The position numbers and the translations under genes are program-made. A model generated the notes under the pieces. That model was given only the letters and a program-made list of their open reading frames with translations. It searched no databases and was not told where the DNA came from. From positions 1-23,415 of the forward strand of contig JAUVXR010000037.1 in NCBI GenBank assembly GCA_030603495.1: DNA of 23,415 bases, written 5' to 3'. The stretch comes from a bacterium. GTDB taxonomy: Bacteria; Armatimonadota; Zipacnadia; Zipacnadales; Zipacnadaceae. Shown piece after piece: positions 445 to 13,974 of the stretch (its first letter is position 1; each line of letters starts with the position of its first letter).

Positions 445-535
445 TAGAGTTTCGGAGCCCAATGCGGCTGGTTGGATAGAGAGCCGCCGCCGGCGAACGA
501 GGAGTAGTCGCATCAGCGCGATGGAGGAGATACTG

Positions 536-778
536 ATGGCGGCCCAGTTGGGCAGTAAGCCCGGATTTGCGCAAAAACTGGCGCGGCCTTTCGTCAATAG
601 CTGGCGATTCTTGCAGGATGTCCGCCACGAGCTGCAGCGAGTGATTTGGCCGAGCCACGAGGATACCTGGACGTTCACCGTGGTTGTGCTCGTTACCATA
701 CTGATTGTAGGACTATGGATCGGTACGTTGGACTACATCTTTGCCAAGCTCATAGCACTGCTCCACCTGTACAGGTAG
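536..778 (+). CDS. secE: Preprotein translocase subunit SecE
   Basis: This 80-residue membrane protein is of the short, single-span SecE type. An amphipathic cytoplasmic helix (FVNSWRFLQDVRHELQRVIWPS) carries the family signature ending in the V-x-W-P turn. One transmembrane helix follows (about residues 46-67). SecE clamps the SecY channel in the SecYEG translocon. I chose ATG 536 over the upstream in-frame ATG 521, because GGAGGAG at 523-529 sits correctly before 536 and overlaps the upstream start. It lies directly upstream of nusG, as in most bacteria. Confidence 0.95.
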   Translation: MAAQLGSKPGFAQKLARPFVNSWRFLQDVRHELQRVIWPSHEDTWTFTVVVLVTILIVGLWIGTLDYIFAKLIALLHLYR

Positions 779-827
779 TTATGTCATCCCCGGAGCAGCC
801 AAACATCCGAAGTTGGAGTCACGGGTA

Positions 828-1355
828 GTGAGAACAATGGAGTGGTACGTCGTTCATACACTGACAGGCAAAGAAACCGGCGTTAAGACCACCATTGAGA
901 AGATGGTGGCAGCTAACGACTGGGGCCACCTACTCGGACGCATCCTGGTGCCCACCGAGACCGAGATTAGGTCCGCGGGCGGCCAACGACGAGAGGTCCA
1001 GCGCAAGCTATATCCTGGCTACATCATAGTCGAGGCCGAGCTGACCGATGACCTGCGCCATCTTGTCCAACACACCCCCGGCGTTACCCACTTCGTCGGC
1101 TCCTCCGACTCGCCTGTACCCCTCAGTGATGAAGAAGTCGCCAACATTATGGAAACGGTCGGCGAGGAGAGTGGCAAGCTCAAGGCCAGCTGGGAAACCG
1201 GCCAAGCAGTCCGCATCATCGAAGGACCGTTCGCTGAGTTCTCTGGCAAGGTCACCGAGGTCAATATCGAACACGAGACAGTTAAGGTGCTCATCAGCAT
1301 ATTCGGACGGGAAACCCCGGTAGAACTTGGCTTCACCCAGATTGAGAAGCTCTAG
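828..1355 (+). CDS. nusG: Transcription termination/antitermination protein NusG
   Basis: The protein has an N-terminal NGN domain starting with WYVVHTLTGKE, which binds the beta-prime clamp helices of RNA polymerase. A C-terminal KOW domain contains GQAVRIIEGPFAEFSGKV and a final FTQIEKL; this domain contacts Rho or ribosomal protein S10 in characterised homologues. The length (about 175 residues) is normal. The start is uncertain. GTG 828 has GGAG at 815-818 nine bases upstream. ATG 837 would give a protein three residues shorter but has a poor ribosome binding site. The TTG at 813 is unlikely, because it overlaps the GGAG. Confidence 0.95.
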   Translation: MRTMEWYVVHTLTGKETGVKTTIEKMVAANDWGHLLGRILVPTETEIRSAGGQRREVQRKLYPGYIIVEAELTDDLRHLVQHTPGVTHFVGSSDSPVPLSDEEVANIMETVGEESGKLKASWETGQAVRIIEGPFAEFSGKVTEVNIEHETVKVLISIFGRETPVELGFTQIEKL

Positions 1356-1445
1356 GGCACACGGGCAGCGCCTGAGTCATTCTGTCGCCTAACGACTCAT
1401 CGCCACCTTGTCTACGGCAATAATACCGCAGTTCGGGAGTAGCCC

Positions 1446-1871
1446 ATGGCCAAGAAAATACTTACAACCATTAAGATGCACGTGCCCGCCGGAAGGGCAA
1501 GCCCGGCACCGCCAGTCGGCCCCACTCTGGGCCAGCACGGGCTAAACATAATGGAGTTCTGCAAGAGCTTCAACGAGCGCACCGCCAGTCAGATGGGCGA
1601 CATAATTCCGGTTGAGATTACCGTCTACGCCGACCACAGCTTCACCTTTATCACCAAGACCCCACCAGCCGCCAGCCTCCTGAAGAAGGCGGCCGGCATC
1701 GAGTCGGGATCAGGAGAGCCGGGCCGCGAGCCAGTCGCCGAGGTCAGCCGCGAGAAGATCCGCCAGATCGCCCAGGAGAAGCAGGAAGACCTTAATGCTC
1801 GCGACATCGAAGCCGCCATGCGCATCATCGAAGGCACCGCGCGCAGTATGGGCATTAACATAGTTGACTAA
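1446..1871 (+). CDS. rplK: 50S ribosomal protein L11
   Basis: This 141-residue protein is full length for L11. The N-terminal domain contains the proline-rich [20 protein letters not shown] region, where thiostrepton and L7/L12 contacts fall in known structures, then [13 protein letters not shown]. The C-terminal RNA-binding domain shows [16 protein letters not shown] and ends in [13 protein letters not shown], which bind the GTPase-associated region of 23S rRNA in the family. CGGGAGT precedes the ATG. It follows nusG by 90 bases and precedes rplA by 41, so the genes are very likely co-transcribed. Confidence 0.97.
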
Positions 1872-1912
1872 GAACCTGGCCGGGTTACGCCGCCAGAACG
1901 GGGACAGTCAGT

Positions 1913-2605
1913 ATGGCAAAGGTAAGCAAGCGCTACCGTCAAGCTCACGAACAGGTCGATCACACCCAGAGATACTCTCTGGACGAGGCTATCCGCCTGA
2001 TCAAGGAGACAGCTTCCGCCCAGTTCGACGAGACTATAGAGATCCACATCAGGCTCGGCGCGGACCCAGCCAAAGGTGACCAGACCGTGCGGGGGACGCT
2101 GGTGCTGCCTCACGGCACTGGCAAGGTGCCACGGGTGGTGGTTTTCGCCCCGGGTGAGGTTGCTCAGGAGGCCCGTGAAGCCGGCGCTGACCGCGTCGGC
2201 GACGAAGACCTGGTAGAGGCCATCGAACAGGGCTGGGACGAGTTTGACATCCTCGTGGCCCATCCCCAACTGATGGGGATGATCGGCGCGCGCTTGGGCC
2301 CGATCCTGGGCCCCCGCATGCCCAGCAAGAAGGCCGGAGGTATCACCCCAAACCTCGCCCAGGCTATAGAAGAGCTCAAGCAGGGACGTGTGGAGTTCCG
2401 CATGGACCGGGGCAGCGTTGTCCACGTTCCCGTAGGCAGAGTATCCTTTACCGACGAGCAACTGCGGGAGAATATCGTCGAACTGCTGCGCACCGTCAGC
2501 GCGGCTCGGCCTGCTGCAGTGACGGGCCGCTTTATGCGCAGCGCCACTCTGGCCTCCTCGATGGGCCCCGGCATCAAGCTGGACCTGGACGAAGCCCAGG
2601 CCTAA
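1913..2605 (+). CDS. rplA: 50S ribosomal protein L1
   Basis: This 230-residue L1 begins with the typical basic KVSKRYRQAHEQVD and YSLDEAIRLIKETASAQFDETIEIHIRLG. L1 forms the mobile stalk at the E site and, in several bacteria, represses its own operon mRNA. The central signature is atypical. After ILGPR the protein reads MPSKKAGGITPN, where bacterial L1 normally has a GLMPNPKTGTVTPD-like segment, so about two residues are missing and the loop is altered. The remaining C-terminal half (VEFRMDRGSVVHVPVGRVSF) is regular. I judge it functional but divergent. Confidence 0.96.
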   Translation: MAKVSKRYRQAHEQVDHTQRYSLDEAIRLIKETASAQFDETIEIHIRLGADPAKGDQTVRGTLVLPHGTGKVPRVVVFAPGEVAQEAREAGADRVGDEDLVEAIEQGWDEFDILVAHPQLMGMIGARLGPILGPRMPSKKAGGITPNLAQAIEELKQGRVEFRMDRGSVVHVPVGRVSFTDEQLRENIVELLRTVSAARPAAVTGRFMRSATLASSMGPGIKLDLDEAQA

Positions 2606-2609
2606 GCTC

Positions 2610-2638
2610 TTGCATCCTGGGAGCGTTACTGCTATAAT
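2610..2638 (+). promoter_or_regulatory. Sigma-70 promoter (extended -10) for rplJL
   Basis: TTGCAT (2610-2615) and TATAAT (2633-2638) are separated by exactly 17 bases, and TG at 2630-2631 makes an extended -10 element. This is the best promoter match in the cluster. It begins just after the rplA stop codon and would start a roughly 230-base leader before rplJ. It matches the separate L10-operon promoter known in other bacteria. Confidence 0.8.
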
Positions 2639-2644
2639 ACGACA

Positions 2645-2838
2645 GAATTCAGTCGTCATGCCGTCTCAAACAAAGTTGCACTGACCGAAGACCGCCGGTG
2701 CGCGATTAGCGTCTAATGGGCCGTTGAGCCGAGGCCCGCCTGTCGAGGTCGGAGAAGTCAATCCCTATCTGTTCCACTCGTCGTTAGGACAGGGATTTCA
2801 CGAGAGCTTCGACACCGGTAGCTCTCGTTTATTGTTTT
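2645..2838 (+). promoter_or_regulatory. L10-type mRNA leader with transcription attenuator
   Basis: The long leader ends in a perfect 9-bp hairpin (2800-2808 pairing with 2820-2828, loop 2809-2819) followed by TTATTGTTTT, the layout of an intrinsic terminator 37 bases before rplJ. Just upstream, AATCCCT (2760-2766) can pair with AGGGATT (2791-2797), and an alternative CTGTTCC/GGACAG pairing overlaps it. In known L10 leaders the L10-L12 complex binds the mRNA, and in Bacillus this causes termination before rplJ. I infer the same feedback here. The exact protein-binding fold was not computed. Confidence 0.65.
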
Positions 2839-2874
2839 GCGACCGGCTGCCCTAACAAACAGGAGATAAGACTT

Positions 2875-3573
2875 ATGCCAACACCCGAGAAGGAAGCTCT
2901 GGTTGTTGAGCTGCGCGAAGCAGTCGAGAAGAGCACGGGAATGTACCTGGCCGATTTCCATCATCTCAGCGTCGCAGAGATGAGCGAACTGCGCGGGCAG
3001 ATCCTCCAGAACGACGCTTGCCTGCGTGTGGCCAAGAACCGCTTGCTCAAGCTCGCTTTCGCCGGCACCGACGCCGAGGGACTTCAGGAGTTTCTCACCG
3101 GTCCGACGGCAGTTGCCTTCTGCCAGGCTGATCCTATCACCGTCATCAAGACCCTCACGTCATTCGGTCAGGATCACGAATACTTGGCGGTCAAGGCTGC
3201 GCTTTTCGACGGACAGATATTCGACCGCGAGCAGGTTGCACGCTTGGCGCTGCTGCCTCCACACGACCAGCTACTCGCCATGGTCCTGGCCGGACTGGCC
3301 GGACCGGTCACGGGATTAGTGAACCTCTTGGATGGCGTTACCTCGCAATTCGTCTTCACTCTGCAGGCGATTGCCGACAAGCGCAAGGAACAGGAACCTC
3401 AGCCAACAGAGCCGTCAGTTGAAGAGGAGGAAGGCGAATCGGCCGAGAAGCCGGTAGAGCCGTCAGTTGAAGAGGAGGAAGACGAATCGGCCGATAAGCC
3501 GGTAGAGCCGTCAGTTGAGGAGCCAATAGAAGAATCCGCCGAGCAACCGCCAGCGGAGCCGGAGGAAGACTAG
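2875..3573 (+). CDS. rplJ: 50S ribosomal protein L10 with long acidic repeat tail
   Basis: Residues 1-171 are a normal L10. There is an N-terminal 23S rRNA-binding domain ([21 protein letters not shown], then [12 protein letters not shown]) and a C-terminal helix (about 155-171) that in the family recruits L7/L12 dimers. Residues 172-232 are an added tail rich in Glu, Pro and Ser, made largely of two near-identical 16-residue units and a third partial one. Bacterial L10 is usually about 165-180 residues, so the protein is roughly 60 residues too long. The tail follows directly after the L12-binding helix. AGGAG nine bases before ATG 2875 supports the start. Confidence 0.96.
3409..3528 (+). 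repeat. 48-bp in-frame tandem repeat encoding L10 acidic tail
   Basis: Units begin at 3409, 3457 and 3505, each with GAGCCGTCAGTTGA. Units one and two are nearly identical over 48 bases, with changes such as GGC to GAC and GAG to GAT. The third diverges after about 17 bases. The period is a multiple of three and encodes a 16-residue EPSVEEEE-type motif. The near-identity of the units points to recent duplication. Confidence 0.92.
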
Positions 3574-3629
3574 TTTTTGCTTTGAATCCTAACGGAGCAA
3601 AGCCACATCAAATAACAAGGAGGAGAACG

Positions 3630-4007
3630 ATGGCTGTTGACGAAATCATCGAACAAATCAACCAGCTCAGCGTGCTGGAGCTCGTCGAGCTGAAGGACAA
3701 GCTTCAAGAGCAGTGGGGCGTGGAGGCAATGGCGCCTGTGGCGGTAGCCGGGGTAGCAGGCGGGGCGGAGGCCGGGGCGGCTGCTGAGGAACAAGTCGAG
3801 TTTACTGTGAAGATCGCCAGCATCGGCAACGAGAAAATCCAGGTGATCAAGGCCGTGCGTGAGGTGACTAGCCTGGGTCTGAAGGAGGCCAAGGAGCTCG
3901 TCGAGGCCGCTCCCGACGCCGTGGTGGCCGAAGGCGTCAACAAGGAAGAGGCCGACAGCGTCAAGGAGAAGCTGGAAGAGGTCGGCGCTGAGGTAGTCGT
4001 GGAATAG
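3630..4007 (+). CDS. rplL: 50S ribosomal protein L7/L12
   Basis: This 125-residue protein has the three L12 parts. An N-terminal dimerisation helix pair (about 1-33, with [19 protein letters not shown]) is followed by an Ala/Gly-rich hinge (about 34-55). The C-terminal domain (from [39 protein letters not shown]) binds translation factors in the family. AAGGAGGAG lies seven to eight bases before ATG 3630. An in-frame upstream start at 3582 would bypass this ribosome binding site and add a non-homologous segment. The gene lies 56 bases after rplJ and is co-transcribed with it. Confidence 0.97.
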
Positions 4008-7863: not shown

Positions 7864-8376
7864 TTATTCGCGGGAATTGTCACTATGTCCTTTACCAACG
7901 CCGTGTCGTGCTGCGTACAGGCCGCTCGCGTACAGCAGCGCGCCCAGCCCGACCGCCACCAGCACCACCGTATCCACCCTGCCCCAACCCGCCACGGCCA
8001 TCACCAACACACCCAGCCCCGCCCCACACGCCGCGAGCAGCAGGAGTCGGAAGTTCCGACGACGCGCTCGCGCCAGCCGCTGACCCCACCAGCCGCCTAA
8101 CACTGCACCGAGCAATGCACCAACTCCGGCGCTGAGCAGAAGGACCGCGGCGTCCGGCTCGGGATCGCCGCCGACGAGACCTATCGCCACGCCGATCTCC
8201 AGCCCTGCCAGCAGGCCCAGCACGCCGCATTCTGCACCAGTAAAGTACTCCCCAGCATCAATATCCTCGGGAGGTACAGAGAAGTCATAGCCGCAGTACA
8301 GACAGCGAGGTCCTTTGGGGGTATCCACTATCGCTCTGTCGCAGCGAGGACAGCGCCGCTCGGAGTCAAGACCCAC
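7864..8376 (-). CDS. Zinc-ribbon membrane protein, unknown function
   Basis: This 170-residue protein starts at GTG 8376 behind AGAGGAGG. The N-terminus is a zinc ribbon: Cys9-x2-Cys12 (CPRC), Cys25-x2-Cys28 (CLYC), ending CGYDF. Four hydrophobic segments follow, rich in Gly, Ala and Leu (roughly residues 47-70, 78-97, 110-130 and 135-158). Gly-rich helix patterns such as GVGALLGAVLGGWWG suggest tight packing. Zinc-ribbon plus membrane-span proteins are common, with mostly unknown roles. It lies between thrB and proA on the same strand, but gaps of 150 and 57 bases leave operon membership open. Confidence 0.8.
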   Translation of the reverse strand: MGLDSERRCPRCDRAIVDTPKGPRCLYCGYDFSVPPEDIDAGEYFTGAECGVLGLLAGLEIGVAIGLVGGDPEPDAAVLLLSAGVGALLGAVLGGWWGQRLARARRRNFRLLLLAACGAGLGVLVMAVAGWGRVDTVVLVAVGLGALLYASGLYAARHGVGKGHSDNSRE

Positions 8377-8526: not shown

Positions 8527-9450
8527 TCACTGCTCCGTCTCTGGCTCAGCGATTACTGCTCCTTCATTGCTTGCGCAAGTCCAGAAGGCGACAGCTTCCA
8601 CGTTGAAGCGGCGGAAAGCTTGCACCATCGCCTCAATAATCTCGTTGTTCTTCTCCTGTGCGAAGGCAACCACGCTCGGTCCCGACCCGCTCAACGCCGC
8701 CCCGTAGGCCCCGGCCTCGCGGGCGGCTTCGATTACCTCGGCCATACCCGGAATCAGGGGCATCCGGTACGGCTGATGGAGGCGGTCATCCATCATCGCG
8801 CCCAGGACTTCCCACTTTCTCCCCACCAGCGCCGCCATCGTGCAGACCGCCCGCGTGGTATTGAACACCGCATCGTCGAACGGCACTTGCTCCGGGAGAA
8901 TGGCTCGGGCTTCTTCAGTACTCACCTCGAAGTTGGGAATCGCCACCCCAATCGCCAACCCCTCGGGCGCATTCAACCGGATACAGAAGACCTCATCTTC
9001 ATCAACCGCGCAAGCCGTCAGCCCGCCGTAGAGCGCCGGCGCGACGTTATCGGGATGGCCCTCGATCTGCGCGGCTAACTGCAAGAGCCGGTCCTTGTCC
9101 AGCCCCGCCTGGAGCAGTTCGTTAGCCGCTACCAGGCCACCGACGATCGCCGCGCTGCTGCTGCCCAGTCCCCGCGCTAGCGGGATATCGTTGTGCTGGT
9201 CCAAGCGCCACCCGGGAACTTGGACGCCCACTTCGTTGGCCACCTGTTCGGCAGCTCGCAAAACGAGGTTACCAGGCCCCAGCGGCAGTTGCCCATGCCC
9301 CTCGCCGGTGATTTCCACCTCGGTGACGGCACTCAGCTCCAGCTCCACGATGTTGTGGAAATCCAACGCCAGGCCCAGGCAATCAAAGCCTGGACCAAGG
9401 TTGGCGGTAGTCGCAGGAACTTCGACAACAACCGAATCAGGCCGGGACAT
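8527..9450 (-). CDS. thrB: Homoserine kinase
   Basis: ThrB phosphorylates homoserine with ATP, the step before threonine synthase. The protein belongs to the GHMP kinase family. It has an N-terminal VPATTANLGPGFDCLGLAL motif, the phosphate-binding loop PLARGLGSSSAAIVGGL (about residues 90-106), and the C-terminal GAYGAALSGSGPSVVAF motif. I chose ATG 9450 (307 residues), because the conserved VPATTAN then lies about ten residues in, as in homologues. The longer GTG 9468 start would overlap alr by 32 bases. ATG 9450 overlaps it by 14, so translational coupling with alr is likely. No other threonine gene is in view. Confidence 0.94.
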   Translation of the reverse strand: MSRPDSVVVEVPATTANLGPGFDCLGLALDFHNIVELELSAVTEVEITGEGHGQLPLGPGNLVLRAAEQVANEVGVQVPGWRLDQHNDIPLARGLGSSSAAIVGGLVAANELLQAGLDKDRLLQLAAQIEGHPDNVAPALYGGLTACAVDEDEVFCIRLNAPEGLAIGVAIPNFEVSTEEARAILPEQVPFDDAVFNTTRAVCTMAALVGRKWEVLGAMMDDRLHQPYRMPLIPGMAEVIEAAREAGAYGAALSGSGPSVVAFAQEKNNEIIEAMVQAFRRFNVEAVAFWTCASNEGAVIAEPETEQ

Positions 9451-10618
9451 CGTTGGTGACACCCCCACTTGCCTCGATCAGCCGCTCGACCCGCCCGTCG
9501 CCCAGCTGACAGGTATAAACACGGGGCAGCCGCGGCGTCAGACGTGCGACGACTTCATGCACTATCGTACCACACCGCTCGGCGATCTCTGCCACCGTAA
9601 CGCTCTCATCACCCTGGTCCCCGATCAGAACCACCTCTTCGCCCACCTCGACACTTGGTACGTCGGTGACATCAATAACCGTCGAGTCCATTGCTATCGT
9701 GCCGATGACCGGCATCCGGCGACCCCGCAGTAGCACGTCGGCGTTGTTCGAAAGCAGGCGGTCATATCCATCTCCGTACCCGACGGACAGCAGCGCCGTG
9801 CGGGTATCGCGTGCCGCTCGCCAGGTGCGACCATAGCCCACCGTCTCGCCCTTCGGGACATCTTTTAGACAGGCAATCTTCGCCTTCAGCGTCAAGGCCT
9901 GCACCATCGTCGGCAGGTAGACTCCGCCGCGATTGCGCGGGATGCCGTAGAGCAGCGCTCCCGGTCGTACCGCATCCAGCCACATCTCCGGGTAGCGCAC
10001 CGTCGCACCGCTGTTGGCGCAGTGCTTCACCGGTACGGGGTACCCCAGAGCGGCCTCAGCGTCCCAGCAGGCCCGCCGAAAACGCTCGAACTGTTCGGTG
10101 GTGAACTGAGGGTCGTCCGAAGAACTGGCAAAGTGAGTGAAAATGCCGCAGATCTGCAAGCCGGCGAGGGTCTTGAGCTGCCGACAATAGTCGCTGATCT
10201 CCTCCGCAGGCACTCCCAGCCGGTGCATGCCCGTATCTACCTTAATGTGCACCTTCGCCGCTTTGCCCAACTCGGCAGCCGCCATGGCGAATGCTTCGGC
10301 TGCGGCCAGATCGCTCAGGGGTACGTGAAAACCGTGGGCGACTGCGGTCTCAGCCGCCGCGCGAGGTACCAGGCCAAGTATCAGGATCTCTGCCTCCGGG
10401 CAGATCTGCTCCAGCTCTAGAGCCTCTTCAAGCAGAGCTACCGCCAGCATCTGCGCCCCACAGTCGTCAACTACTCGCGCCACCACCGCCGCACCGTGGC
10501 CGTAAGCATCATCCTTGACCACCGCAATCAGCTTGCGCTGATGCCCCAGAACCGAGAGCACACGGTGGACGTTGTCAGCGATTGCGGTGAGGTCTATTTC
10601 TAGCCATGCGGGCCGCAT
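9437..10618 (-). CDS. alr: Alanine racemase
   Basis: Alr interconverts L- and D-alanine with pyridoxal phosphate, supplying D-alanine for peptidoglycan. The 393-residue protein starts RPAWLEIDLTAIADNV. The PLP lysine is Lys35 in AVVKDDAYGHGA, KVDTGMHRLG is at 126-135, and the second catalytic base is Tyr262 in ETVGYGRTW. SVGYGDGYDRLLSN, GTIAMDSTVIDVTD and the C-terminal ISPRLPRVY-like TPRLPRVYTC complete the fold. The loop after Lys35 reads DDAYGHG, where most homologues have ANAYGHG. It is first in an alr-thrB unit behind a near-consensus promoter at 10702-10731. Confidence 0.95.
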   Translation of the reverse strand: MRPAWLEIDLTAIADNVHRVLSVLGHQRKLIAVVKDDAYGHGAAVVARVVDDCGAQMLAVALLEEALELEQICPEAEILILGLVPRAAAETAVAHGFHVPLSDLAAAEAFAMAAAELGKAAKVHIKVDTGMHRLGVPAEEISDYCRQLKTLAGLQICGIFTHFASSSDDPQFTTEQFERFRRACWDAEAALGYPVPVKHCANSGATVRYPEMWLDAVRPGALLYGIPRNRGGVYLPTMVQALTLKAKIACLKDVPKGETVGYGRTWRAARDTRTALLSVGYGDGYDRLLSNNADVLLRGRRMPVIGTIAMDSTVIDVTDVPSVEVGEEVVLIGDQGDESVTVAEIAERCGTIVHEVVARLTPRLPRVYTCQLGDGRVERLIEASGGVTNDVPA

Positions 10619-10701
10619 ATAGTTCCATCCTGAAGGCTACGCCTGACTGGGCGCCCCCCCGAACTCAGAGGTCCGGAAAGCCGCCTCATCTTCCCGGCTT
10701 C

Positions 10702-10731
10702 ATTTTACGCATTGCCTGCTGGCGTTGTCAA
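10702..10731 (-). promoter_or_regulatory. Sigma-70 promoter for alr-thrB
   Basis: Read on the - strand, a perfect TTGACA (10731-10726) and TAAAAT (10707-10702, five of six) are 18 bases apart. Transcription would start near 10695, giving a leader of about 75 bases before alr. Apart from the rplJ promoter this is the clearest promoter in the window. Confidence 0.8.
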
Positions 10732-10764
10732 GTTTGCTCGCGGCCGCTTGCTGCCCTACCCACC

Positions 10765-10799
10765 AAAAGCCCTGGGCGGACCGCCTCAGGCCCGCCCAG
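10765..10799 (-). terminator. Probable terminator of the sigma-factor operon
   Basis: On the - strand CTGGGCGG (10799-10792) pairs with CCGCCCAG (10779-10772), an 8-bp GC-rich stem. It is followed by GGC and a short TTTT run (10768-10765). It lies 60 bases beyond the last gene of the sigma cassette and just upstream of the alr promoter, where a terminator is expected. The short T-run keeps confidence moderate. Confidence 0.6.
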
Positions 10800-10858
10800 T
10801 CTATTTGCCTTGTTACCCGTTCTTCTCCTGCTCAGAAGCTCCCCCTGGACCGACTCAC

Positions 10859-11104
10859 TCACCTAGCAATCTGGGCCACGTTGTTGGAAATAGCACGCGG
10901 CTGCTCCTCCTCATCCCGGCCCTCACTGCGCCAGTCCTTCTCTGGCTCAGCTTCGTCCGCCTCGTCGTCATCGCCATGGCAGCATTGTCTTCCCTCGGCC
11001 ATGACCAGCGCGTGAGCGCGCACCAGGGCTTTGTCAATGATCTCCTCCCTTCGTCTAACCAGACTGGCTATCACCTTCTTGCACCGCGAGTCGCGATCGT
11101 TCAT
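10859..11104 (-). CDS. Small acidic protein coupled to sigma factor, unknown function
   Basis: The 81-residue protein begins MNDRDSRCKKVIASLVRRREEIIDKALVRAHALV, a charged, probably helical segment. It continues into a very acidic, likely disordered half with DDDEADEAEPEKD and RDEEEQ. Its ATG (11104-11102) overlaps the TGA of the sigma gene in an ATGA junction. GGGAGGAG lies about five bases upstream, so it is almost surely translated together with the sigma factor. I chose this start over a longer frame from 11236, which would lie inside the sigma gene. Genes in this position often encode sigma regulators, but no anti-sigma zinc motif or membrane span is visible. The function is unknown. Confidence 0.7.
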   Translation of the reverse strand: MNDRDSRCKKVIASLVRRREEIIDKALVRAHALVMAEGRQCCHGDDDEADEAEPEKDWRSEGRDEEEQPRAISNNVAQIAR

Positions 11105-11787
11105 TGTGCTCCTCCCACCTGCATCGGTTCCGACAGACGAGCAAGCTTCTCTCGCCCTCGGTACGCACGCGACTTGACCGTGCCTTCTGGAATCCGCAGG
11201 AGTCCGGCAATCTCCGCCACCGTGTAACCATACCAATGCAGCACCAGAACAGAGCTGAATTCGAACGGCAAGAGGTCCAATACCTGCCGCAGTGCTATCT
11301 CCTGATGCTCGTCCTGTTCCGCGGTCTCCACAGGCAACTCCGCCGGGAGGGGGATCCTGCGGCGGGCCTGCGCGGTCAAGCTCTCAATTACCTTCTTGCT
11401 CTGATTATTGATCATACCGAACAAGTACCTCTGAACTGCCCCCCGGTCCTCGAACTCATACTCCTCAGGTCTGTTAACTAGATTCTCCAGAATGTCGGTC
11501 AGGGCCCCGATGACAACGTGTTCCAGCTCCTCGACATCCTCGGTGTTGACCCTTTTTTGAATTGCTTCTACGCACCTTCTGAAAGTCTCCGGCCTAAGCA
11601 GTTCGTGAACGGCGATTGTTATCTGCTTTGGGCCGCTTTTCAGTTCTGCCAGCGTCTTACCATGTACCCCCCAGGACTCAAGATCCCGTTCCACCGAGCA
11701 GATCACAGCTAACGGCCTCCTCAAATCTGGTCCCTGGACAGGGAAGCTGGACACTATCGCGGAGTCGCCCCGCAGGTCTCCGCGCAA
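11101..11787 (-). CDS. RNA polymerase sigma factor, ECF-like sigma-70 family
   Basis: The C-terminal part (about residues 160-222) is a clear sigma region 4. IALRQVLDLLPFEFSSVLVLHWYGYTVAEIAGLL precedes the recognition helix RIPEGTVKSRAYRGREKLA, which reads the -35 element. Residues 82-145 fit a weak region 2 (EDVEELEHVVIGALTDILENL, then RYLFGMINNQSKKVIESLTAQARRR). About 75 extra residues precede it and match nothing I recognise. A long region 3 is absent, as in ECF sigmas. The start is taken as TTG 11787, nine bases after AGGAG; TTG 11796 is too close to that motif. It is sandwiched between two unknown genes with 2-base spacing and a 4-base overlap. Confidence 0.85.
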   Translation of the reverse strand: MRGDLRGDSAIVSSFPVQGPDLRRPLAVICSVERDLESWGVHGKTLAELKSGPKQITIAVHELLRPETFRRCVEAIQKRVNTEDVEELEHVVIGALTDILENLVNRPEEYEFEDRGAVQRYLFGMINNQSKKVIESLTAQARRRIPLPAELPVETAEQDEHQEIALRQVLDLLPFEFSSVLVLHWYGYTVAEIAGLLRIPEGTVKSRAYRGREKLARLSEPMQVGGAQ

Positions 11788-11789
11788 TA

Positions 11790-12080
11790 TCAACAACTCC
11801 TACGCGCTCGCAGCTCGTATCTCAGGCCATGACAGACAGCCTCGTCCAGCATCTCCGGACTCAAACGCCCAACTGCCGGGCACTGACCGAGGTAACTTAC
11901 CGCCCGCGCGTACGCCCCCACCAGTATGCCCTCCGCCACATCCTCCTCACAGACTTGTCCCTCCTCAACTACGCGGCGCACGTAGCGCTCGTGCGTCGAG
12001 CCCGCTCTCAGATGCCTCCGTAGCTGAGCGTCCGGGCCCCACCCTGCGCCGCTTTTCTCTGCGCCGGGTTTAGTTCTCAT
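11790..12080 (-). CDS. Small protein upstream of sigma factor, unknown function
   Basis: The 96-residue protein has a basic N-terminus (MRTKPGAEKSGAGWGPDAQLRRHLRAG), then a mostly helical part with YVRRVVEEGQVCEEDVAEGILVGAYARAVSYLGQCP and LSPEMLDEAVCHGLRYELRARR. It has three cysteines before a terminal fourth, but no clear zinc motif, signal peptide or membrane span. GGAAGGG precedes ATG 12080. It ends two bases before the proposed sigma start, and the AGGAG for the sigma gene lies inside its last codons, so the two are translationally coupled. It heads the three-gene unit. I do not recognise the family. Confidence 0.65.
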   Translation of the reverse strand: MRTKPGAEKSGAGWGPDAQLRRHLRAGSTHERYVRRVVEEGQVCEEDVAEGILVGAYARAVSYLGQCPAVGRLSPEMLDEAVCHGLRYELRARRSC

Positions 12081-12307
12081 ACTTAATCCCTTCCTCGAGG
12101 CAGCAGCGTTTTAGCGATACAGGTGACTCCTTTCAAGTAGGTTAGCGGTCAACATCTCCCGGCTAGCTCCCCTGTCCAGGTTGAGCCTACGCCTATACTA
12201 TATATACACCAAAGACACCCGAGGGTTCCCCCTGATGCTTGATTCTTTCGCCCCCCCTCGATATTGGTGAGGAGAAGGCACGAAGCCGCAGCCTGCCCAG
12301 CCGCCGA

Positions 12308-12348
12308 GAAAACAATGAGCCCGAAGTCGGTTGGGCCGACCTCGGGCT
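12308..12348 (-). terminator. Terminator after the gamma-glutamyltransferase-like gene
   Basis: On the - strand TCGGGCT-type arms form a 13-position stem: 12348-12336 pairs with 12330-12318, with one A/C mismatch and loop 12335-12331. CATTGTTTTC follows. It lies 46 bases past the stop codon at 12394. The rest of the 313-base gap (12081-12393) holds no gene. It contains an AT-rich stretch around 12190-12210, probably part of the promoter for the sigma cassette. Confidence 0.75.
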
Positions 12349-12393
12349 GCCTCTATTGCTGTATACCCGCTGCAGAATACGGCCGACGGCTTA

Positions 12394-13974
12394 TCAGAAG
12401 GTTAGGGCACAACCGTCACAGCGCGGGTCGGACCCGCCAGTCAACACGCCGTTGTCGGCCAAACCAATGACTTGCACCCGCCCGCCCGCCGCATAGGGCC
12501 CAATGACATCAACTTCATGTCCGCGCTGCGTCAGACCGGCGAATGTCTTGGCCAGCGCGCGCTGCTCCAGGCTGATACAGCGGCCTTCGTGTCGCATCCA
12601 GCGTGGGTCTTCGGCGGCCTGCTGCGGCTCACAGCCAAAGTCCAGCAAAGCCGTAATGACCTGCAGATTGGTCTGGACCTGAACATCCCCGCCGGGTGTT
12701 CCTCCAACAAAAACCGGTCGCCCCTCACGAAACACCATGTAAGTGTTGAGCGTGTGCACCGTCTTTTTGCCCGGCTCCAAGAAGTTGACGTGGGCAGGAT
12801 CCAGCGAGAAGCCGCAGGCGCGGTCGTTGAGCAACACGCCGGTCCCTGCGGCAACCACCGCGCATCCCCACGGAAGGAAGATGCTCTGAATGTAGCTGAC
12901 GGCGTTACCCCAGCGATCCACGCAGCACAGGTAGGTAGTGTCGCTGGCAGCCGGCGGCTGGCCCGGGAGTGGTGGGGATTCGAGGGCTCGCCCCATATCA
13001 ATAAGTGCGGCGCGCTCCGCCGCATATTGCTTGGACAGCAGTCCCAGCGGCAGCGGCGACCACTTGGGGTCGGTGGTATACCTGTCCTTGTCTGCATGGG
13101 CCAGCTTGTTGGCTTCGATGCACACGTGTACGGCCTCTGGCGACAGATGGCCCATTGCTGCCAGGTCGAAGGTCTCTACCATATCCAGCGACTGCAGCAA
13201 TATATGTCCCTGGCTAACCGGCGGCTGCTCGTAGACGCCCCAATCCCGGTACGTAGTGTGCAGGGGCTCGAGGACCTTCGCCTGGTGCGCCGCCAGATCG
13301 CCGGCGGTTATCACGCCACCGCCGGCCCGCCAAAATTCGGCTATACGGCGGGCGATTTTGCCCTCATAAAAGACGCGAAAGCCTTCGTCGGCGAGGGTGC
13401 TGAGCGTCGCGGCCAGGTCAAGCTGCCGCAGGATATCGCCCTGCTCCAGCGCAGCTCCCTCAGGCATCAGCGCAGCCATGGTTGAAGGGAACTGGGCCAG
13501 ATCGCCGTAAGAGCTCTCAAGCAGCGTGCTCAGATTCCGGGATACGGCAAAGCCTTCCCCGGCATAGACTATCGCCTCCTCCAGTACCTCCGCAGGTGAC
13601 ATCGTACCAAACCGCGCAAGCGCAACATCCCAGGCGGCCACCTGCCCGGGGATTGTCGAGCTAAGGAAGCCGCTCGCCGGAATCTGCCCATCGAACATCC
13701 TTGCGTGGAGCCCTGCCGGGGTTACACCAGACGAGTTGATAGCAGTAATCGCCTGCTTCCCGGCATCCCACACCAGCATGAAGGCGTCGCCGCCCAGATG
13801 GCTGGAGTGGGGCTCGACGACATTGAGTACTGCGGCGGCGGAGATAATGGCGTCAATGCAGTTGCCGCCCCGGCGGAGGATGTTCATCCCCGCCTCGGTC
13901 GCCAGACAGTTCGAGGTAGCTATAACGCCCCGGCGCCCTTGCACAGGAGCCCGGGTGGTGAACATTCCAGACAT
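12394..13974 (-). CDS. Gamma-glutamyltransferase-like Ntn hydrolase
   Basis: The 526-residue protein has the gamma-glutamyltransferase fold throughout: ATSNCLATEAGMNILRRGGNCIDAI, VVEPHSSHLGGDAFMLVWD, TIPGQVAAWD, and YGDLAQFP. The autoprocessing site is SDTTYLCCVDRWGNAVSYIQS, where Thr346 (first T of TTY) is the expected nucleophile at the new N-terminus of the small subunit. VGGTPGGDVQVQT holds the catalytic glycines. No signal peptide is visible, so it is probably cytoplasmic, unlike periplasmic glutathione-degrading Ggt. The substrate is uncertain. Cytoplasmic members include acylase-like and unassigned enzymes. AAGGAGG eight bases before ATG 13974 sets the start. It follows mnmA by 56 bases. 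Confidence 0.88.
   Translation of the reverse strand: MSGMFTTRAPVQGRRGVIATSNCLATEAGMNILRRGGNCIDAIISAAAVLNVVEPHSSHLGGDAFMLVWDAGKQAITAINSSGVTPAGLHARMFDGQIPASGFLSSTIPGQVAAWDVALARFGTMSPAEVLEEAIVYAGEGFAVSRNLSTLLESSYGDLAQFPSTMAALMPEGAALEQGDILRQLDLAATLSTLADEGFRVFYEGKIARRIAEFWRAGGGVITAGDLAAHQAKVLEPLHTTYRDWGVYEQPPVSQGHILLQSLDMVETFDLAAMGHLSPEAVHVCIEANKLAHADKDRYTTDPKWSPLPLGLLSKQYAAERAALIDMGRALESPPLPGQPPAASDTTYLCCVDRWGNAVSYIQSIFLPWGCAVVAAGTGVLLNDRACGFSLDPAHVNFLEPGKKTVHTLNTYMVFREGRPVFVGGTPGGDVQVQTNLQVITALLDFGCEPQQAAEDPRWMRHEGRCISLEQRALAKTFAGLTQRGHEVDVIGPYAAGGRVQVIGLADNGVLTGGSDPRCDGCALTF

Follow-up and report, generated by a model that had tools for sequence, protein, structure and literature searches.

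A genus-restricted operon of a divergent, predicted ECF-type sigma factor with a conserved long-range stem in its leader

What kind of regulatory unit is formed when the gene of an unusual sigma factor is flanked by two small open reading frames? The locus in question lies in the window (the whole 23,415-nucleotide stretch of DNA that was analysed), part of a 2.67-Mb draft genome of Ca. Zipacnadia (Armatimonadota), labelled G000 in the comparisons; this class is the subject of PMC10290634. The three ORFs of the initial annotation, one of 96 aa (p96), one carrying sigma region 4 and an acidic one of 81 aa (p81), were recovered on the minus strand (Table 1), and the annotation was right to single out an unusual sigma adjoining a small acidic partner. 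Terminator-like hairpins, a class found modestly above shuffle expectation (3 found versus 1.4 expected), bracket the set, which is therefore probably its own transcription unit.

Table 1. Coordinates of the operon, its predicted signals and its flanking genes in the window.
Feature	Position	Strand	Remarks
Alanine racemase gene (alr)	9437-10618		Flanks operon; named from Pfam
Terminator-like hairpin 3' of p81	10772..10799	-	11-pair stem, consensus scan
p81	10859..11104	-	81-aa acidic ORF; adjoins sigma in all six genomes
Sigma gene	11101..11706	-	Predicted divergent ECF-type; 201 aa with revised start
Shine-Dalgarno GAGGAGG, sigma gene	11716..11722	-	Read from sequence, 9 nt before GTG 11706
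Long-range RNA stem, 3' arm	11733..11748	-	AGCTTCCCTGTCCAGG
p96	11790..12080	-	96-aa protein ORF
Long-range RNA stem, 5' arm	12165..12180	-	CCTGGACAGGGGAGCT
Probable promoter	12197..12229	-	GGAACC 12229-12224, 17-nt spacer, TATATATAGT 12206-12197
Terminator-like hairpin, gamma-glutamyltransferase gene/operon junction	12318..12348	-	13-pair stem, consensus scan
Gamma-glutamyltransferase gene	12394-13974		Flanks operon; named from Pfam

Gene content, sigma start and distribution of the operon

Orthologues of the sigma were compared across six genomes, namely G000, G027 (L014), G029 (L013), G030 (L012), G031 (L010) and G032 (L011). The sigma start conserved with the five congeners is GTG 11706, which yields a protein of 201 aa. 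In four orthologues the start ATG aligns adjacent to this codon, a few residues before a conserved DL..WGV block; the open frame of G027 starts somewhat earlier, yet past the p96 stop, and in G030 a 1-nt deletion shifts the frame upstream of the sigma start out of register. Neither TTG 11787, the start chosen in the initial annotation, nor the residues that it adds upstream of GTG 11706 are conserved, and it is this choice that created both an apparent 2-base gap to p96 and an unusual N-terminal extension of the sigma. Both disappear with the revised start: the p96 stop and the sigma start are 83 nt apart, the ribosome-binding site of the sigma gene lies in this intergenic stretch and not inside p96, and the protein has the ordinary size of an ECF sigma. 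With no 2-base junction, an intergenic ribosome-binding site and p96 in only two of seven genomes, the fixed stoichiometry proposed for the three proteins is left unsupported. Sigma and p81 do overlap by ATGA at 11104-11101, as annotated, but this is specific to G000: in its relatives about 7-13 nt separate the two genes. The case illustrates that a misassigned start codon is enough to produce a seeming extension and a seemingly tight coupling.

All six operons are preceded by a GGAACC box (GCAACC in G027) located 17 nt before a TATA-like element. This agrees with the earlier reading of GGAACC at 12229-12224 followed 16 nt on by GTATAT, of which both box and spacing are conserved, and the GGAACC-N17-TATA arrangement is a probable promoter as predicted from sequence. 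A search for the corresponding regulon was unsuccessful: the genome contains 7 sites of the form GGAACC-N16..18-TATA, whereas the reversed pattern gives 11 and a version with a scrambled box gives 5. In the absence of genome-wide enrichment no regulon can be inferred, and autoregulation of the operon by its own sigma is a guess.

The operon was encountered in a single genus of marine, uncultured Armatimonadota. The sigma was found in six of the seven genomes of the genus, the seventh being 68% complete, and was found in none of 284 genomes of other Armatimonadota at E<=1e-15, a cut-off that would miss more remote orthologues. Every genome with the sigma has p81 beside it, and in another genus p81 gives one weak match (E 0.009, G017). 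The p96 gene was found only in G000 and G027, which are mutually closest by alr identity. The proposed synteny of the trio thus holds for the sigma-p81 pair (6/7) and fails for p96 (2/7); the trio consists of a conserved pair and a lineage-specific third gene. Since p81 accompanies the sigma wherever the latter is found, the two are likely to form a functional pair. A first contig search with a single query sequence gave no match; outside the genus, the sole contig match was to Streptomyces, over the C-terminal part of the sigma (L072), and no relatives of the sigma were found on viral contigs. A few literature searches, covering open-licence papers, returned no description of the operon or of its stem.

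The surroundings of the operon vary. Sister genera have other genes upstream of alr, where the sequence stretch reaches. Within the genus, the position between mnmA and the sigma operon is held by the gamma-glutamyltransferase gene in G000 and by a pair of related ORFs, each about 755 aa long, in G027 (L014 9142-13722); in G030 and G031, mnmA lies directly upstream of the operon. Elsewhere, the window contains a tRNA-Trp (369-444), a plus-strand run of ORFs resembling, by eye, secE, nusG, rplK, rplA, rplJ and rplL (521-4007), and a 170-aa ORF (7864-8376) with a zinc-ribbon-like N terminus and hydrophobic stretches, similar to ORFs in L011 and L014.

A conserved long-range stem in the leader

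The leader of the operon has the potential to form a 16-bp stem between the 5' end of the mRNA and a segment located ~10 nt before the Shine-Dalgarno sequence of the sigma gene. In six out of six leaders this stem is the top-scoring helix among partners at least 100 nt apart. Its score in G000 (40.8) exceeds the mean (27.8) and the maximum (36.8) of 60 shuffles. Scores in G029-G032 (31.4-34.6) stand above shuffle means of 22.3-24.0, with at least one shuffle reaching or passing the observed value in G031, G032 and G029, and the score of G027 (27.6 versus a shuffle mean of 25.9) is unremarkable taken alone. When folding is unconstrained, the stem core reaches a probability of at least 0.8 in five genomes, G027 being the exception, and in G029-G032 RNAalifold predicts the stem without prompting. 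A gapped duplex test of the leader against the pre-sigma region, in which as good a result was obtained by 1, 9, 6 and 9 of 1,000 shuffles for G000, G031, G030 and G029, respectively, is weak for G032 (58/1,000) and G027 (164/1,000) and falls below the ungapped helix test.

Conservation of the stem includes compensatory changes. Over the six arm pairs, 92.7% of the cells pair, four pairs are changed on both sides, and the covariation score is reached by none of 500 shuffles; as the six leaders represent about three independent lineages, this covariation rests on few events. In G029-G032 the 3' arm is invariant in 16 of 16 columns (100%), the 5' arm in 81% and the segment between the 3' arm and the sigma start in 94%, compared with 33% for the loop interior. 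The loop interior is unrelated in two lineages, carrying p96 in one and being apparently non-coding in the other, which indicates that it is the arms themselves that are kept.

Could the two blocks instead act as DNA, either as two inverted regulator sites or as the arms of an invertible segment? Both are approximate palindromes around CTGG-CAG and lie in inverted orientation, one of them just downstream of the promoter, as such a reading would have it. However, the motif is unique, with no dispersed copies elsewhere in the genome; departures from perfect complementarity of the arms are often G-U wobbles; and the three 5'-arm positions that vary among G029-G032 all keep their pair. Furthermore, the large ORFs of the window, part of which were searched, showed no evident recombinase gene. 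We consider action as DNA unlikely.

Returning to the RNA stem, several specific roles were considered. Sequestration of the sigma ribosome-binding site by the stem was rejected, the predicted accessibility showing no consistent change, as was a local hairpin hiding the same site, which was proposed by RNAalifold in four genomes and has folding energies like those of shuffles (z -1.9 to +1.6). Rfam returned only sub-threshold, chance-level matches over window positions 10700-12450. Just 3' of the 5' arm, L010-L013 carry a near-perfect and conserved Shine-Dalgarno-like sequence, GGGAGGTGAT (alignment A5, columns 147-172), but G030 has lost the start codon that follows it and the frame is not kept between genomes. 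A conserved leader peptide was likewise rejected, the ATG after this element being absent there in G030 and G027. Pairing of the arms leaves the whole of p96 within the loop, so that translation of p96 alone would not open the stem. The simplest roles for the stem would be to make sigma expression independent of p96 translation or to provide a site of cleavage.

The sigma factor and its two small neighbours

By sequence, the sigma is a divergent ECF-type factor that would initiate transcription. Its region 4 matches PF08281 over the cut-off (3.9e-11) and has the ECF sigmas SigE, SigW and SigR as PDB relatives. Region 2 gives no match to PF04542; however, comparison with six ECF sigmas of G000 (hhalign, 98.8%) produces an alignment that covers the end of region 2 as well as region 4. 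The length of about 200 aa leaves no large extensions. The AlphaFold model is of low confidence (pLDDT 63) and matches sigma factors mainly over region 4, and a PHROGs search returned generic sigma factors only. The sigma evolves fast, G000 sharing 37-45% identity with the others compared with 65-77% for alr. Among other sigma-like sequences, eleven sigma region-2 matches were counted genome-wide in G000, and a 690-aa frame on contig C60 shows a long insertion between its N-terminal part and a primary-sigma-like C-terminal part.

The p81 protein consists of a conserved, helix-like stretch of ~35 residues at its start (RRExI...AL..A..L) followed by an acidic and variable tail, with pairwise dN/dS values of 0.42-0.72 for unsaturated pairs. 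No family and no anti-sigma match was returned by Pfam, NCBIfam or PHROGs, PDB sequences gave no match, and no zinc anti-sigma motif is seen in the sequence. No anti-sigma or other family matches either p96 or p81, in keeping with the earlier remark that the cassette has no transmembrane anti-sigma and no zinc anti-sigma motif. The constant adjacency of p81 to the sigma suggests that it is a dedicated partner of the latter, possibly a soluble anti-sigma.

The p96 protein matches neither Pfam nor any other family, and it behaves as a real gene in that the G000 and G027 copies show a dN/dS of 0.27, indicative of purifying selection. Its AlphaFold model (pLDDT 81) contains four helices. In structural comparisons, the ten top-ranking matches consist mostly of sigma region-2 domains or of sigma chains aligned through that region, including SigR (Z 7.8), a SigH/SigE chimera (7.6), SigH (7.5), BldN (6.8), SigE (6.3) and SigC (6.0), although helical models can attain Z values of this size, the best being 7.8, by chance alone. 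Foldseek matches have E above 1, and comparison with the sigma2 profile is not significant. A duplication of region 2 of the operon's own sigma was also considered as the origin of p96 and set aside, the profile comparison being not significant; the two profile alignments of p96, both of them non-significant, match region 2.2 to the same helix of p96. The model is thus suggestive of p96 being a free-standing sigma2-like domain, which we regard as a fair hypothesis.

If p96 has such a fold, it could supply sigma2 functions to the divergent sigma in a two-subunit factor, as RsoA does for SigO. A split of sigma2 and sigma4 over two proteins has a precedent (PMC8103513), and the gene next downstream of p96 encodes a sigma in which Pfam detects no region 2. 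Against this, the sigma appears to keep a recognisable region 2 of its own, four congeners have the sigma without p96, and the W and N usual in ECF regions 2.3/2.4 are absent from p96 as judged by eye, making a two-subunit factor quite unlikely. The absence of these promoter-contact residues would suit a decoy: p96 might release the sigma from an anti-sigma p81, much as PhyR does with NepR. A PhyR chain is found among the structural matches (Z 5.6), and there are known cases of degenerate sigma-like domains working through mimicry (PMC8103513). However, p96 is a single domain of 96 aa with neither the receiver domain of PhyR nor a known signal input, p81 matches no anti-sigma family, and in four genomes sigma and p81 occur in the absence of p96. 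We therefore give mimicry the same low probability as the two-subunit arrangement.

The divergence of region 2 also raises the question of whether the sigma has lost its initiation activity and now serves, as a sigma-like protein, in another role. In addition to escaping Pfam, this region carries I/V-G in the six orthologues where ordinary ECFs have the Q-E of region 2.2. However, other ECFs of G000 also vary at this Q, an asparagine near regions 2.3/2.4 is invariant across the six orthologues, and pairwise dN/dS values of 0.15-0.4 (unsaturated pairs) place the sigma gene under purifying selection, so that we see only a slim chance of such a loss.

Proposed mechanism and comparison with known systems

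The reading that we tentatively favour, at somewhat less than an even chance, is that of a self-contained, genus-private operon in which the sigma is accompanied by p81 as its soluble regulator, by p96 as an accessory and by a leader stem. The transcript would start from the conserved GGAACC-N17-TATA promoter, and its first bases would reach across some 285-490 nt to pair with the segment just preceding the sigma Shine-Dalgarno sequence, closing a loop that carries the p96 gene in G000 and G027 and appears non-coding in the four others. Beyond the loop would follow the divergent ECF-type sigma and, close behind, the small acidic p81. The sigma may guide RNA polymerase to a limited number of promoters, its own possibly among them, with p81 acting as its dedicated soluble, anti-sigma-like regulator and p96, where present, as an accessory sigma2-like domain touching the same partners. 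The stem would either free sigma expression from p96 translation or mark a processing site of RNase III type between the two genes. A more elaborate scheme, in which RNA structure sets the expression of all three genes, the loop carries p96 as a sigma2 mimic and exchange between this mimic and an acidic anti-sigma sets sigma activity, is improbable.

Two features of the locus are the more surprising, namely the long-range stem, conserved in the six leaders, and the sigma2 fold that p96 may have. If confirmed, the operon would provide a sigma mRNA whose leader is folded around a gene, a possible stand-alone sigma2 domain outside Bacillus and a small sigma partner of a new kind, all within a class that is largely uncultured. 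Sigmas that work with non-standard partners bear on how transcription control arises from few parts.

SigO-RsoA of Bacillus subtilis, in which sigma2 and sigma4 are divided between two proteins (PMC8103513; SigO-RsoA also PMC10141391), shares with the present operon a small sigma2-like protein, here only putative, encoded beside a sigma. In contrast, the sigma described here aligns over both regions 2 and 4 and lacks p96 in four of six genomes, which does not correspond to a split factor. The sigma mimicry system PhyR-NepR (PMC8103513) resembles the operon in the possible presence of a sigma-like domain devoid of promoter-contact residues near a small soluble protein; it differs in that p96 has no receiver domain and p81 no NepR match.

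Parallels in gene organization are offered by the ECF (group IV) sigmas, which likewise measure ~200 aa and comprise regions 2 and 4 only, may have a co-encoded regulator in a small conserved gene directly downstream, and have a GGAAC-like -35 box upstream. The sigma described here departs from them in its strongly diverged, putative region 2, in a partner, p81, that matches no known anti-sigma family and in its confinement to one genus.

Folded sigma-factor mRNA leaders are found in Escherichia coli rpoS and rpoH, where, as predicted for the present operon, the 5' part of the mRNA folds back onto bases close to where the sigma gene begins. Unlike those leaders, the stem described here ends upstream of the ribosome-binding site, which it is not predicted to hide, and consists of 16 bp that span some 285-490 nt and can enclose a whole gene.
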